A stretch of DNA of 23,364 nucleotides from Spirogloea muscicola. Its lineage: Eukaryota > Streptophyta > Zygnematophyceae > Spirogloeales > Spirogloeaceae. The notes below the pieces were generated by a model, which worked only from the letters and a program-made list of their open reading frames with translations, did no database searches and was not told the DNA's origin. Location of the stretch: NCBI GenBank assembly GCA_009602725.1, contig WELB01000157.1:119729-143092 (forward strand), written 5' to 3'. The position numbers were made by a program, and so were the translations under genes. Shown piece after piece: positions 1,071-21,540 of this stretch; within the stretch, counting starts at the first letter, position 1, and every line of letters begins with the position of its first letter.

Positions 1071-1134
1071 AAGAAAGTGCTCGCCCATTGAGGATAGGGG
1101 CTGGAAAAGCCAGCCCAAAAAAGTATCAACAAAG
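1071..1134 (-). mobile_element. Ultra-short stem-loop insertion with target duplication
   Basis: This 64-bp insert carries the canonical stem-loop (GGGGCTGGAAAAGCCAGCCC), the TGCTCGCCCATTGAGG box and little else. It is flanked by the direct repeat GACGTCG at 1064-1070 and 1135-1141, extended with one mismatch by neighbouring A/G bases. This is what an extremely 5'-truncated target-primed insertion would leave. Confidence 0.7.
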
Positions 1135-1188
1135 GACGTCGCCCTGACGGAAGCCGGAGGCCGCCGCCAAAGAAGAAAAGAAGAAAGT

Positions 1189-1570
1189 GCTCGCCCATTG
1201 AGAATAGGGGCTGGAACAACCAGCCCGAAAAAGAATGAACAGAGTACGAGAAGGGGGCCAGGGTAAGCGCTAAGAAACAGAAACAAAGCAGCTACGAGAC
1301 ACTCAGTAACCCCTGCTAAGCAGCCGCAGACCAGAGATGCTGGGCTCCTGGAAGTGGGTCCCCTGGTCCAAAGCTCTCGGCCTGCACGGAAGTGAACCGC
1401 GAAGGCAAGGGACCGCTGCATCGAGATGGCCAAACGCATTCGGAAGGTTCCCCGAAACATCCTCCGACACGATCTGCTCCCGCTCCCTCCCCCCGTCCCT
1501 GGCGCGTACAGGTGAAGTACATTTGTCAATGTGCTTGCCTTTGTACTTGGCCACGCATGACCTCCCCATC
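1189..1570 (-). mobile_element. Longest minus-sense copy of the stem-loop LINE 3' end
   Basis: On the minus strand this runs from the tail-like GGCCAAGTACAAAGGCAAGC block near 1550, through a decayed C-terminal peptide (RMRLAISMQRS, then an AGRE-type segment, about 1450-1375), then the 3' UTR with the GGTTACTGAGTG block (about 1300), to the terminal stem-loop and GGGCGAGC box at 1189-1235. It is the best link between the coding and terminal parts of the family. Open frames are short, so it is not a working element. Confidence 0.7.
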
Positions 1571-2720
1571 TCTTAATGCAAACATTTTCCTGGCGCGTCG
1601 TGGCTGACGTCACCCATGCCCATTGCGTGCCACGCGCCGCGTGCCGGCTGCTCCCATCGCTCAGCATCCATCACTGCCACCTGCGGGAGGTTCGGTACGG
1701 CCGAGGCTCGCGGAGACCGTCTGGGCAGCGGTTGGATTCGCGGCGGGGAGCAGCTCGGGGCAGGAGAGAGCGCCTGGGTGTGGAAGATGAAGGACGCTTC
1801 CAGGAGAGGGTGGTGGCTGTGAGAGGTCAGCTCAGAAAAGAATGCACAAAGGTCGAAGGGGCCAGGGAAAAGCGCTAGAGCACACGGGCAATCATGTAGC
1901 TACGAAACACTTGGTCACCCCTGTTGGAGCGGCCGCAGGTCGGATGAACTGGTCTCCGGGTAGCTGGTCTCCTGACCAGGGATTGCTTCGCTTGGGCCGG
2001 TCGCCGCGAGATCCCAGCGCTGCCTGCTAGGCCGGGTTTGGCCGCCGGCTACGCCGGTTGTCTGCGCTGGTTGGCCGGCTTCGTTGGCCAGTCGCCCGTC
2101 CCAGTGGCCGACTCAACCCTCCAGCCGTCCGTTCCACGATTGCCCCACCACCGCTTCTGTAGCGCCCATCTTTACGGTCTTGTGGAGGGTTGACTTGCCT
2201 CCAGAAGGGCTTCCCTCGTTGCGCTTCTCACCGTCTTCTGCCGGTTGGCGTCGGGCGTGGGCTTTGGCCCTTGTAAACGCGCCATTGGTTTCGTAGTCCG
2301 CTTTCGATGAGCGGTCGCCTCGATCGAGAAAGAGAGAGAGCGAGAGAGGGTGGGATGGTCCCTACATCCTTGGCTCGAACCACACCCAAAACTGTATGAC
2401 TCAGCCGCAGGGATCCACGTGTCAAGCCAGGTCAGCTGTCCTAGTCAGATCGACACAAATAGGCCTACGACATGAAATAGCACGACAGTCCCCCTCGGCA
2501 CACCAGCTCATGTGGTGCTTACACTGCGTGAACGACTGCAAACACCTCGACCCCCTGCCTTCCCTTCCTCTCCTTGGGGACACGCAGCTGACGTTGGCAA
2601 ACCTCACCTGCTGCATCAGCCAACGGACATGCTACTTGCAGCGGACAGCGGCCCCCATGGGCACGATGGGCGAGCTTTACAAGGAGTTTGACAACCCCCC
2701 CTTCCAGACGTCTTGTTGTA
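1571..2720 (+). repeat. Duplicated segment, uninterrupted copy 1
   Basis: This matches 6560-8830 block by block: GCGTGCCGGCTGCT near 1640, GACGCTTCCAGGAGAGGG at 1793, GGGATTGCTTCG then CTTGGGCCGGTCG at 1979-2003, CGCTTCTGTAG at 2152-2162, a GAGA tract at 2327-2350 and ACTCAGCCGCAGGGATCC near 2400. Copy 2 has extra sequence at three of these joints; copy 1 keeps them closed and so serves as the empty site. The block from about 2390 on also occurs at 9536-9860. Short ORFs here have no recognised domain. Confidence 0.8.
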
Positions 2721-18745: not shown

Positions 18746-20802
18746 CTAGTTGGTGATGCACTTGAAGTTGAATCGAGAAAGCTGCTGCGGAATGGCAGAA
18801 ATCACGGGCCCGTACCGCTGCCAAGGCCAAAACATACAGAAATTTCTTTCAATAAGAGCTAGATACCAACACGTTCCTTTTCAGTCAAAACTATGTTCAG
18901 CACATGACAGCGCTCATCATCTGCTAGAGAGACCATCGCGTAAGAGTGCAAGCACAGCCTGAAGACCAAGAAGCGGAAGCAGGGTGAACAAGCTGAAGTG
19001 TCAAGGCAAGATGGCATCTTTGACAACAGAGGAGAGACTCTCAAATGACAACAAGCGCGCTGCACTCGGTCCTCACCTGAACATTGTCATAGAGCTCAAA
19101 AAGAGGCACTGCGAGCAACTTCAGGTTCTTTGGAACTGCAAAGTAGTGACGCTCTGGCAGGTGCACCACGAACAACTTCTTGCATTCCTGCTCGTCAGCC
19201 ATAAGAGAAGCCAGGCTGAGAACCCCGACCCACACACACGCACACACAACAGCGAGTGGCAATGGCCAGATCCCAAGTACTGGCAATTGTCAAGCCAGTG
19301 GTTCCTCACCTTCGCTTTTGTAATATGCGGGGGACAATAGGGGTACATGAGCGTCTCGAAGTTGGGCCGCCACCACATTGCTGCGCACTCGCCCACCTAA
19401 ACAACAACAGACAAAGAGGTGCTATGTAGATACCTTGATGTCAAGGTCTAAGGCTAGGTGAAGCTTTGAGGTGATACGGATTTGTCTTACATTTTACCAG
19501 GGTGTCAAGTATTTGAGCTGGCAACTCCCTGCCCAAAGAGCTTATACTTCGTCTTGACCCTTCAGCACAACATCAGCACACAAGTCCTTAACGAAAGTGT
19601 CACAGCTGCTCCTTGGTGCAATACTTCGGGTGCAGAAGGAGAGGCAAAAGTACCTGCCACTCGATCGGGAAGGGAACGGAGGGCAGAGCGAGCTTGCTGC
19701 TGAGCTTCCTCTTCAAACCCTCCACCTCTGCCATTTGTAAAGCAGTGCGCAGCAAAGAAGCTCTCTCAACTATCAGCAGCAACCTCCACTGTGCAACGAG
19801 AAGCTCCAAATCCAATCTCTGCTGGCCTGAATTCATTGTGAACTTGAGTGCGCATAGGGAAGAGTCCTGCAAATGGTACCGTCTTCGCCTGGCTTCAAGC
19901 GGCCCCCGGGGAGCTTGAAGAACGTATTGCCGATCTGCAGCAGCAGAATATGGGGATGGTTGTGCTCTTGCACCTGCAATAGCCAGCACAACGTATCATG
20001 GTTGAGTGAGCAGCTATGGACCACTCCCTGAGCCACCAATACCAACATGTGACTGTGTAAATAATTGGTCATCGAATTCAACAACTCACGTGTTGTGCTC
20101 AAATGGAGCTTGCGGCAAGTACGAGCAAGTCTTCTTACGAGAGCCTCCAAGGCAAGCAGGTTGGCAGGGCCAGCCACAGGCTGAGATTGTGAGCTCACCA
20201 AGAGGATGCCGTCAACGGTCGTCCTCATGCCCTCCTTCGCATACCTAGAAGACAAGGCACACAGGTCCCATGCCGAATTTCCGACGCTTGGTTGTCAAGA
20301 CCGACATTCCAAAGCCGTTCCGAAACCTCAACCCCAAACAAACGCAGCGACGGCGTCGACAGGGCCTCCTCCTCATCGCAGAAGCGGGGTAGGCGCTGTG
20401 CGCGCGCCGCCCACAGAAGGGCGGGGGCAAGCGCAGCTGCAGCTGCAAGGCAACCCCGTCCTCGTTGCGGCACGCCACACGAGGAGCCCCAGCTCGTCGC
20501 TCGCTGCCTGCCACCAGCTCGGCCCCGGCTGCCGCCCTGCCCGCCGGAGGGGGCCAGCCGCCGCTGCCGCAAGTCGTGGCTCGGCCGTTCGGCGGCTCGG
20601 CGGCGGCACAGCCGGAGGCCGCAGCAGCTAGCAGCCGTCGCAATAGCATGGCCAGAAGCAAAGAGAAGGGGCAGAGGGCTCACGTCTGCTTCATGCGCGC
20701 GAGGCGGTCAGCGACGGACGTGTCCTTCTCCATCTTGGCCTCCTTGGCGCCGAACGTGTAGCTCGACAGGGGGTAGATGTTGACGACGGGCCCCGGCACC
20801 AT
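18746..20802 (-). CDS. NUDT21: Cleavage factor Im 25 kDa subunit (CFIm25 / CPSF5 / NUDT21), plant type
   Basis: Seven exons (20802-20684, 20244-20199, 19973-19880, 19727-19654, 19396-19310, 19187-19077, 18817-18746) give a 200-residue protein, the plant CFIm25 length, with every junction in phase. Landmarks: [16 protein letters not shown] (7-21), [12 protein letters not shown] (27-38), [20 protein letters not shown] (56-75), [18 protein letters not shown] (119-136), [11 protein letters not shown] (167-177) and [18 protein letters not shown] (178-195). CFIm25 dimers bind UGUA in pre-mRNA and, with the large CFIm subunit, guide poly(A)-site choice in the nucleus. The Nudix box is degenerate: G79...E85 and R93 remain, but the catalytic EE pair is S97-K98, as expected for this non-hydrolysing family. 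Start at 20802 was chosen by length; an in-frame ATG at 20943 would add 47 Gly/Arg/Ala-rich residues. Confidence 0.93.
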
Positions 20803-21060
20803 CTCGCTGCCGCCACTGCGAAGCCCCGCCGCCGAGCCGTAGGTCCCGGGAAGGCCTGCGCCTCGGCCGTCCGCGGCGCCTCCAATGGATCGAGCCGTCG
20901 TCGCGGGACGCGCGCCGCGCCCGGCCCGGCGCTCGCGCGGCACGGCGNCGGAGGCGGCGGCGGCGGCAACGGCGCGGCGGCGGCTAGCGTGGAGGAGTGG
21001 AGTGTGTACTAAGTGGCAAACTACAAAGCCAATTACTTTGACAGATGTCTATTAAACGGC
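20803..21060 (-). promoter_or_regulatory. GC-rich 5' flank of the CFIm25 gene, with an N at 20948
   Basis: CGG/GCC-rich sequence runs to about 20985, followed by ordinary sequence. It would contain the 5' UTR and promoter, or an N-terminal extension if translation starts at 20943. The N lies 5 bases upstream of that ATG, so the 5' end is unreliable. No TATA box was seen. Confidence 0.45.
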
Positions 21061-21069
21061 CGCTAACAG

Positions 21070-21540
21070 ACAACAGCGCTGCCTAATTGACTGGTGGCTG
21101 TCGGAGGCCAGCCCAGAAGAGAGGACAAGGTCTGGAGCTCGCTTTGCTGGCCCCTCGTTTTCTGTGGGCGAGCCATTTCCTCTTTGTAACACCAGCTCAG
21201 ACTTCACCAGCTCGACTTGACCAGCTTTCTGGTGCAAAGCATAAGCCTGAGGGAGCTGGGAAGGCCAGCTCAAACACAAGATCAGAAGCGGCTGCCGATA
21301 CTCGTTTAGCTCTTCCGAGAAAGAAAGAAATAGACGAGAATTGTAAGAAGAAGTGGCTCTCCCAATGGGGGCAAGGGCTGTGAAAGCCAGCCCGAAAAAA
21401 ATTGACGAAGGTTCGAAGGGGCCAAAACGACGGAGGGACCGAAAGCGCTATGTTAGAACGGGTGTAGGATGGACGGGTGTAAGAGGCCAGCCCAAAGTGT
21501 CTATTAACTTCCGAATGGGCCGGAGGACGCATGACTCCAC
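21070..21540. repeat. Cluster of stem-loop element ends and LINE fragments
   Basis: Bases 21087-21130 hold the GACTGGTGGCTGTCGGAGGC variant (compare 714-740). Bases 21222-21250 hold TTTCTGGTGCAAAGCATAAG, the antisense of the ALHQKAG-coding segment of LINE copy B (13313-13335). Bases 21351-21400 hold the CTCCCAATGGGGGCAAGGGC variant (compare 167-200). Bases 21474-21500 hold a GTGTAAGAGGCCAGCCC variant. No intact ORF is present. Confidence 0.65.

Follow-up and report, generated by a model that had tools for sequence, protein, structure and literature searches.

LINEs of the restriction-like-endonuclease (RLE) type are chiefly known for site specificity, and many of these elements come from animals; R2 is targeted to one site in the 28S rDNA; non-site-specific R2-like elements have reportedly been found in cockroach. 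L2-clade elements encode an APE endonuclease. The last 65-67 nt of the R2Tg 3'UTR, comprising two helices, suffice for priming (PMC12222951), retrotransposition of UnaL2 and ZfL2 depends on recognition of a cognate stem-loop (PMC4176376), HERO families are in many cases non-specific and in some cases microsatellite-specific (PMC4640811), and green algae harbor LINEs with an RLE, Dualen/RandI (PMC8226300, PMC4640811), of which Dualen encodes APE as well as RLE (PMC4640811).

Here we analyzed a window (the whole stretch of 23,364 nt) from the Spirogloea muscicola genome in which the initial annotation had seen a LINE family with a 3' stem-loop resembling that of UnaL2. With a probability of roughly 87%, these repeats are mostly 5'-truncated copies of an R2-like, RLE-type LINE clade whose protein probably selects its own RNA by a terminal module of ~60 nt. 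Like R2 (R2Bm, R2Tg), the element has one ORF in which a reverse transcriptase, a CCHC knuckle and an RLE signature follow putative N-terminal zinc fingers (C2H2-like motifs), and R2 provides the top PDB sequence matches of that ORF. The 65-67 nt described for R2Tg are also comparable to the 62 nt over which our A1 and A2 tail types align. Unlike R2, it is dispersed in the genome, its insertions bearing duplications of about 6-11 bp; Pfam (E up to 1) matched no Myb domain in the four ORFs scanned, and the 3' RNA sequence is another one. HERO, NeSL and the non-site-specific R2-like elements are likewise RLE LINEs, the host here being algal. Dualen resembles it in being an algal LINE with an RLE, but no APE domain was matched in the four Spirogloea ORFs (Pfam, E up to 1). 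With UnaL2 and ZfL2 the element shares a stem-loop at the 3' tail, and its 3' end probably works as in UnaL2-type LINEs. However, the element is no relative of eel UnaL2 (L2 clade), because the single R2-like ORF carries a C-terminal RLE signature and no detectable APE.

Copies in the window and their common 3' end

The window copies share a 3' end consisting of a GGGCTGG/CCAGCCC hairpin, a spacer of 11-12 nt, GGGCGAGC or a relative of it, and a pyrimidine tail. The features located are as follows.

150..235, minus: B-type tail (GGGAGTGC), outer limits approximate
548..633, minus: A1-type copy, 92 nt of the reference (BLAST)
694..772, minus: D-type tail
794..949, plus: A-type ORF C-terminus, 90.6% amino acid identity, without 3' tail (tblastn)
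1070..1138, minus: A1-type copy cut to 69 bp, CGACGTC at both ends (BLAST, shared-string search)
1180..1442, minus: A1-type copy, 279 nt of the reference, with C-terminus, 3'UTR and hairpin (BLAST, tblastn)
1780..1960, minus: C-type tail, outer limits approximate
5837..6415, plus: A1-type copy, 552 nt of the reference, with ORF remnant (5837-6279), 3'UTR and hairpin GGGCTAG/CTAGCCC
6698..6758, minus: A2-type tail, aligned part (BLAST)
6971..7109, plus: A1-type copy, 157 nt of the reference, CTTCTGG at both ends (BLAST)
7170..7345, minus: C-type tail and 3'UTR, outer limits approximate
7385..7591, minus: A1-type copy, 199 nt of the reference (BLAST)
9627..10804, plus: sister-family (F) LINE remnant
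11790..11850, minus: A2-type tail, perfect 8-bp stem; limits are those of the part aligning to the A1 reference only
12473..12528, minus: A2-type tail, 58 nt (BLAST)
13053..13238, minus: A1-type 5'-truncated LINE copy with C-terminal remnant, 3'UTR and hairpin (BLAST to the L074 reference)
13081-13099, minus: hairpin of the 13053..13238 copy
13062-13069, minus: GGGCGAGC of the same copy
13053-13061, minus: tail of the same copy, ACTTTACTA
13233-13238 and 13047-13052: TTTATG duplicates of the same copy
13234..14381, minus: sister-family (F) LINE remnant reaching the C-terminus, host of the 13053-13238 insertion
14714..14827, plus: A2-type tails, two in head-to-tail order, each with a perfect 8-bp stem; tandem unit of 54 bp
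within 21060..21180, minus: D-type tail, hairpin 21095-21114, outer limits approximate
within 21060..21180, plus: decayed A2-like tail ending at GGGCGAGC 21166-21173, beside the D-type tail
21350..21426, minus: B-type tail with GGGCTG hairpin and GGGAGAGC

A scan of the window for stem plus terminal motif, with mismatches allowed, returned 18 rows, 16 of which we judged to be real tails, one strongly decayed; the rows at 12499 (plus) and 18212 (reverse-strand index) were set aside as chance or antisense of a listed copy. Since types C and D, with different terminal motifs, add four more tails, the earlier estimate of about twenty copies in both orientations is right by our judgement of the rows. 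The common hairpin also held up: perfect 8+8 stems occur three times (0.00 expected, 100 shuffles) and the stems of the remaining copies are mostly 6-7 bp, a T standing in place of the eighth pair in A1-type tails. The CTT-type tail was borne out as a short one, 2-13 nt, of variable length. The octamer GGGCGAGC is found 18 times in the window against 1.76 expected, with tails accounting for only 10 of these. It is not diagnostic alone, because at least four occurrences lie within LINE coding remnants, where GGGCGAGCTTTACAAG encodes GELYK three times and AAAGCTGGGCGAGCTC encodes KAGRAL. As a standalone marker it was rejected: in many loci it appeared to follow the RLE at a constant distance, but what lies there encodes KAGRAL and is not a tail.

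The decayed C-terminus LQRSMARA...AGRALAAAS read from the letters is real (tblastn, 794-949 and 6001-6279, both plus strand) and belongs to the full-length LINE protein. That upstream lengths vary was correct; the 12 copies reaching the reference 3' end by BLAST measure 56 to 552 nt, figures other than those first given. In the copy at 1780..1960 the hairpin ends 101 nt downstream of the stop codon that closes ...SDLRPLQQG, and an empty-site homologue of the 13053..13238 insertion is present in L066. A PsbP gene adjoins the repeats, in keeping with an algal host.

Full-length elements and insertion hallmarks

Long copies contain one open frame of ~1,300 aa with zinc-finger motifs, reverse transcriptase, CCHC knuckle and the RLE signature D..D..KX2KY. 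The frame is uninterrupted (1,271-1,363 aa) in five of the six long A-type loci fetched, the sixth reading N. Two elements are complete, at 4,110 bp; the 5' ends of L074, L075 and L071 fall within 4 nt of each other, and identity to L074 is 99.95% for L075 and 99.67% for L071, which departs from the element before the 3' end. The full-length copy with a reverse transcriptase that had been sought upstream of the hairpin end is thus at hand, Pfam RVT_1 being matched in all four ORFs scanned (58.7-68.3 bits). Among PDB sequences, the best relatives are R2 retrotransposon proteins (E 7.2e-07 with a single sequence, 1.5e-11 with a profile). D1193, D1208, K1238 and Y1242 are invariant across the four aligned ORFs, an RLE signature at motif level only, and HMMER aligned no PDB chain over the RLE region. 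The KX2KY site reads KELKY in family A and KLRHY in the sister family F. As sequence motifs, these residues downstream of the knuckle match the RLE core described with a KX2KY variant (PMC5678591). The knuckle itself is spaced CX1CX11-12HX3C and departs from the CX2-3CX7-8HX4C given there for RLE-type LINEs (PMC5678591). In the L075 frame, C2H2-like motifs occupy positions 117-137 and 316-336; Pfam zinc-finger matches stayed below cut-off.

The LINE family is large and recently active. Exact tails in the 153-Mb genome number 5,630 (A-type), 2,511 (B-type) and 2,282 (D-type), together 10,423 for the three variants, and the perfect stem is found at 2,167 places, while reversed control patterns gave 0 in all four genome-wide searches (perfect stem; A, B and D tails). 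The loci fetched for closer study are a non-random sample, chosen by stem pattern (4), LINE protein (30), RVT_1 (30) and as chosen regions (11); L005, which falls inside the window, was excluded from local tail scans.

As the initial annotation had predicted, a sharp 3' edge is combined with scattered 5' edges: 84 of 162 BLAST pieces end at most 25 nt from the same 3' end, with lengths of 28-4,110 nt. Most copies are 5'-truncated, some to ~30 bp, the shortest being cut inside the hairpin, and the flank 3' of the element has no consensus after about +14. Among 40 A1-type copies with a recognizable motif, 13 had strings of at least 7 bp, with a purine, shared by both ends, against a permutation mean of 1.4 and a maximum of 8 in 10,000; the other 27 had no duplication of 7 bp or more. 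The target duplications are about 6-11 bp long. In L075, the one element examined for them, neither long terminal nor terminal inverted repeats were found; internally, it does contain direct repeats of three families, including a 24-nt pair (79%) in which RLE code is matched by the 3' end together with its flank. A 24-nt inverted pair lies within the first 90 nt.

These hallmarks bear on two other origins for the repeats. Helitrons are likewise marked by a 3' hairpin, situated 10-12 nt short of the end; they are not known to make target duplications, encode Rep/helicase and end in CTRR. A GC-rich hairpin near one end, at a fixed spacer, would thus suit a Helitron or other DNA transposon, whose non-autonomous copies would share both ends. 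Yet the 5' ends are scattered and not at a fixed length, target duplications are found, full-length copies contain a reverse transcriptase ORF, the end is pyrimidine-rich and not CTRR, and L075 lacks terminal inverted repeats; we rejected such an origin as barely credible, and the LINE nature of the family stands. Alternatively, the many short copies might be SINE-like non-autonomous families parasitizing the LINE, as the abundance of short copies and the alignment of A2-type copies to the A1 element over the last 62 nt alone could indicate. This we consider quite improbable, in that the short copies have scattered and not fixed 5' ends and many A1, A2, C and D tails are preceded by a LINE ORF C-terminus (distances were taken from at most 12 examples per tail type). 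Such a C-terminus motif stands upstream of 21 of the 37 A2 tails, some of these cases being due to neighboring F copies, compared with 0 of 37 in antisense. The F protein is 41-44% identical to that of A, and the family ends in a different 3' hairpin. Young F copies (L065, L066, L068, L069) were accordingly rejected as a source of the A-D tails.

The hairpin and the surrounding fold

The initial annotation proposed compensatory changes as a check on the stem. What this returned was a slight excess in score but no excess in changes: the covariation score was 0.091 against 0.082 in shuffles, with 10 of 500 shuffles as high, whereas pairs changed on both sides numbered 4 against 3.9 in shuffles (68 distinct rows). 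Relatedness alone can yield a slightly raised score. Of 95 A, 32 B and 22 D tails, 74, 28 and 20 respectively entered the stem-pair table; in the 74 A copies, 5 stem cells (pair 8 excepted) were changed on both sides where 2.0 were expected. Of these 5 cells, 2 pair, and most rows with such cells look misplaced or badly decayed. There is hardly any covariation because the stem core is nearly invariant, with changes mostly one-sided and in dead copies; the check thus lends the recognition role at best weak support, without refuting it.

This near-invariance is what one would expect if the hairpin were incidental, the reverse transcriptase reading only the tail or a linear motif (GGGCGAGC plus Y-rich tail) and the stem persisting through descent of all copies from a small number of masters; in A1 tails, the (A/C)CTT that follows the motif hardly varies either. 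Against this, each of the tail types A1, A2, B, C and D retains the stem-loop, although loops range from 3 to 8 nt and stems from 5 to 8 bp, and spacer and terminal motif have changed as well. The stem-loop also falls within the last 62 nt, the only part over which A1 and A2 align. We therefore regard an incidental hairpin as unlikely and the hairpin as probably the recognition element for the element's own enzyme.

The hairpin may also be part of a larger 3' fold, where the A-type GGGCGAGC pairs with upstream GUACUC-GUUCAUU in a basal helix around it. Seven stretches were folded, L026 being excluded. The helix is contained in the minimum-energy fold of a 120-nt A1 copy (z -4.0; z -3.2 for a 136-nt copy) and, in a 7-bp version, in that of an A2 copy (z -1.8), and hairpin and basal helix together pair at 79.9% in the given register versus 24-51% at slid registers. 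On the other hand, the minimum-energy folds of one B tail and one D tail lack the helix, one difference between A1 and A2 breaks a pair of it, and RNAalifold over 75 tails (those with both arms and the upstream block recognizable) prefers a small local hairpin, one of whose pairs is changed on both sides in 10 rows. The larger fold is thus a possibility that we hold somewhat doubtful. A search of the window, L068, L070, L074 and L075 against 4,227 Rfam families, HDV-like ribozymes included, gave no known RNA family at E up to 0.5.

A model for insertion and its significance

Taking the repeats as R2-like LINE copies, it can be envisioned that one protein nicks the target and that target-primed reverse transcription of the element RNA sets out from its 3' end. 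Hairpin, spacer, GGGCGAGC-type motif and short pyrimidine tail, ~60 nt in all, make up the terminal module that would let the protein bind and select its own RNA. Reverse transcription would frequently stop early, which would yield copies of ~30 bp to 4.1 kb with a common 3' end, and the CTT-type tail may arise from slippage or from annealing to the target.

A broader reading, which we offer as tentative and on balance doubtful, is that of an algal R2-like LINE clade, not bound to a single target, with a portable 3' module of ~60 nt kept across diverged lineages, protein and hairpin co-evolving as cognate pairs. Within one genome with more than 10,000 tails there is a sister lineage with another hairpin, and the A-type module would add the GGGCGAGC basal helix.

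R2 is described as under development for gene-insertion tools (PMC12222951). The Spirogloea genome holds a dispersed, recently active R2 relative whose frames are intact and whose insertions run into the thousands. Together with related families that kept or changed the 3' hairpin, it provides a mutational series made by nature, from which the enzyme's requirements at the RNA 3' end may be read. The same series bears on how target specificity gets lost in RLE-type LINEs.

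Hairpin-tailed repeats in the window and the genome

A scan of the window (C157:119729-143092) returned 18 rows in which a hairpin is followed by GGGCGAGC or GGGAGAGC, 16 of which were accepted as real, and four more tails carry other terminal motifs, which bears out the hairpin-tailed repeats described in the initial annotation. The perfect 8+8 stem occurs 3 times in the window, as against 0 in 100 shuffles, and at 2,167 places in the genome (153,112,186 bases, 471 contigs). Counted as exact matches only, with decayed copies left uncounted, the genome holds 5,630 A-type tails (2,859 forward and 2,771 reverse), 2,511 B-type tails and 2,282 D-type tails, the letters denoting types of tail; reversed control patterns gave 0 matches in every genome-wide pattern search. 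At another locus, L032, LINE tails near 2630 and 2860-2960 have on both sides, or lie within, stretches that resemble pieces of the 18S rRNA gene, to judge from the strings GTACACACGGCCCGTCGC and CTTCCGCAGGTTCACCTACGGAAACC.

Other features of the window (family F is a sister LINE family with another 3' hairpin)
3281-3721, minus: Glycosyltransferase family 61 domain (Pfam E 3.4e-11)
6064-6222, plus: C-terminal LINE remnant
9260-9491: long AG simple repeat, 115 units, directly upstream of an F remnant
9627-10804, plus: F remnant
about 12940-13020 and 14840-14950, minus: F-type 3' ends, GGCC hairpin and terminal TTTCAAATACACGAAA-like sequence
13234-14381, minus: F remnant
13771-14070, minus: 99-aa LINE remnant
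16875-17213, plus: PsbP domain stretch (E 9.8e-16)
17272-17334: tandem repeat, 30-bp unit, 2.1 copies, 100% match, adjoining ACCCTAAACCCTAGACC
19041-20294, minus: two NUDIX_2 stretches in separate frames, apparently exons

The PsbP and NUDIX_2 stretches, the latter presumably a CFIm25-like gene, belong to the host and point to a photosynthetic eukaryote, probably an alga.

A young source element with an R2-like protein

For either LINE remnant the genome contains no fewer than 150 relatives (for the 99-aa remnant 150 were scored out of 2,950 candidates, for the C-terminal one out of 8,222). Six loci with long reported frames were chosen from the relatives of the C-terminal remnant; five hold uninterrupted frames of 1,271-1,363 aa and the remaining one is N-masked; masking of this sort inflates the reported frame lengths. 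The A-type 3' end is present on L074, L075 and L070, and in L074, our reference copy, 76 nt separate the stop codon from the hairpin start. L075 is 99.95% identical to L074 over 4,110 nt, the 5'-truncated L070 99.92% over 3,900 nt, and L073 89% over 3,236 nt, while L071 (99.67% over 3,974 nt) shares the 5' end and departs from the element before its 3' end. Because the starts of L074, L075 and L071 differ by no more than 4 nt, and L074 and L075 have unrelated flanks, we take 4,110 bp as the full length. The A-type element has been active recently.

The RVT_1 domain scores 58.7-68.3 bits in four ORFs, and an APE-type endonuclease, as in L2-clade LINEs, was not found when the ORFs were scanned at E up to 1. 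Among PDB sequences, R2 retrotransposon proteins rank first (E 7.2e-07, or 1.5e-11 when a 4-sequence profile is used), in alignments that cover the reverse transcriptase (RT) region only, plus a zinc finger weakly. The L075 frame has C2H2-like motifs at residues 117-137 and 316-336, and C-terminal of them a CCHC knuckle precedes RRVD...LLLDVV...KELKY, with D1193, D1208, K1238 and Y1242 invariant across four aligned ORFs. In PMC5678591, LINEs with a restriction-like endonuclease (RLE) are given a knuckle CX2-3CX7-8HX4C and a catalytic KX2KY whose second K is less conserved; KX2KY is matched here, with H replacing the second K in the F family, whereas the knuckle, CX1CX11-12HX3C, does not match the published spacing. 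The comparison with UnaL2 first drawn gives way to an R2-like, RLE-type affiliation, in view of the PDB matches, the RLE motif and the APE scan. PMC4640811 describes RLE clades as mostly target-specific, with many non-specific families in HERO, and Utopia elements as a single ORF with N-terminal zinc fingers, RT, zinc finger and RLE. For Chlamydomonas and relatives, L1, Zepp-like and Dualen LINEs are reported in PMC8226300. None of the papers that an open-access library listed for the terms used is, by title and abstract opening, about the A-type family.

Ends, target duplications and tails

In the window and the other loci, 84 of 162 BLAST pieces of L074 extend to its 3' end or stop no more than 25 nt short of it, at lengths of 28-4,110 nt, and seven of these are shorter than 45 nt and therefore cut inside or behind the hairpin. 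Of the 84, 24 have their start precisely 62 nt before the end. In 19 cases the first bases are TGTCC, the mark of the A2 type, whose sequence upstream of that point finds no alignment to A1, and we read the 62 nt as the extent of a module common to A1 and A2 and not as a truncation point. A string of at least 7 bp with at least one purine is common to the 5' junction and the 3' flank in 13 of 40 A1 copies, against a mean of 1.4 and at most 8 among permuted pairs (10,000 permutations); with the purine condition dropped, the figures are 14/40 and 6.2% of mismatched pairs. Sixteen copies match the reference at 90% identity or more, and ten of them have 6 bp or more in common at both ends.

Examples of target duplications
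GACATTAG: flanks the 3,900-nt copy L070
CTTCTATCAGA: flanks a 91-nt copy in L004
TCTCAGTC: flanks a 30-nt insertion in L020
GGCTAGCAA: flanks a 32-nt insertion in L072

The window copy at 13053-13238 interrupts the C-terminus of a LINE of family F and is bordered on each side by TTTATG, and the F copy L066 provides the uninterrupted, empty-site counterpart. With the RT ORF and the common 3' end at scattered lengths, the duplications uphold the original reading of these repeats as LINEs.

In A1 (29 copies), GGGCGAGC is followed by an almost invariant (A/C)CTT, pyrimidines predominate to about +12, and the consensus is gone after about +14. In duplication-flanked copies, 2 to 13 nt separate GGGCGAGC from the duplication by our reading of the junctions, 2 nt being a floor set by a search that started at the third base (examples are ACTTTCT, ACTTTCTTCTTCT, ACTTTACTA and CCTTTCTTCTT). 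Such tails are compatible with a short CTT/TTC tail arising from slippage or set by target annealing. Two pyrimidines open 11 of 14 shared strings. Adjacent tails no more than 120 bp apart share orientation in 28 cases and oppose in 12 (two-sided p 0.017), an excess that suggests insertion into older CTT tails, a tentative reading because the sample is non-random.

The hairpin and its likely role

A T-rich lead and GGGCTGG-loop-CAGCC are common to the five tail types.

Hairpin; tails with the ORF C-terminus DLxLLxRGY-stop upstream; stop codon to hairpin end among the examples listed
A1: 7 bp, 5-nt loop; 16/44; 95-118 nt (7/12)
A2: 8 bp, 3-nt loop; 21/37; 104-123 nt (5/12)
Unclear A: 5/14
B: 6 bp; 8/28
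C: 5 bp; 6/18; 101 nt (2/6)
D: 6 bp; 8/22; 80-84 nt (4/8)

On the opposite strand each tail type gave the same C-terminus 0-3 times, and shuffled sequence gave it 0 times. Among the listed examples the stop-to-hairpin distance recurs within a tail type; many of the remaining ones, including most for B, are part of an adjacent element, in many cases an F copy, and because of this the ORF link is not claimed for B tails.

The search for compensatory changes, suggested at the outset, gave weak support at most. Over 68 distinct rows of the alignment, the stem core (columns 61-65) shows very little variation and, apart from a few cells, is paired throughout; pairs changed on both sides number 4, against 3.9 in shuffles, and the covariation score is slightly raised (0.091 vs 0.082, with 10 of 500 shuffles as high), which related sequences can produce without any structure. 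The test is low in power because a dead copy should normally lose a pair through a change on a single side. Besides the 5-bp core, RNAalifold recovered another, small hairpin. When a 120-nt A1 copy is folded by energy (z -4.0), a basal helix forms as well, GUACUC-GUUCAUU / AAUGGGC-GAG, which would make GGGCGAGC its 3' strand; an A2 copy has a shorter one (z -1.8), and the helix is absent from the folds of one B tail (z -0.3) and one D tail (z -0.6).

Family F is a second young LINE family of the same clade. Its copies L065, L066, L068 and L069, with frames of 1,267-1,350 aa, end in a GGCC-armed hairpin (e.g. GGCC-ATTT-GGCC), behind which come about 20 nt whose last bases resemble ATACACGAAA, as do many copies at other loci. 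At L068:6746-7201, no more than a few dozen bases lie between the 3' end of a copy with a full-length frame and, downstream of it, the C-terminal portion of a second F copy with the same orientation, either a head-to-tail or a nested insertion. The A and F proteins share 41-44% identity across about 1,050 aa, and a different hairpin at the same place is compatible with cognate recognition, though no proof of it. Stringent-type L2 LINEs need their cognate stem-loop according to PMC4176376, and for R2Tg PMC12222951 has the last 65-67 nt of the 3'UTR, two helices, as enough for priming. The recognition role first proposed for the hairpin is likely. The A-type LINE is ordinary as a kind and good as a study system.
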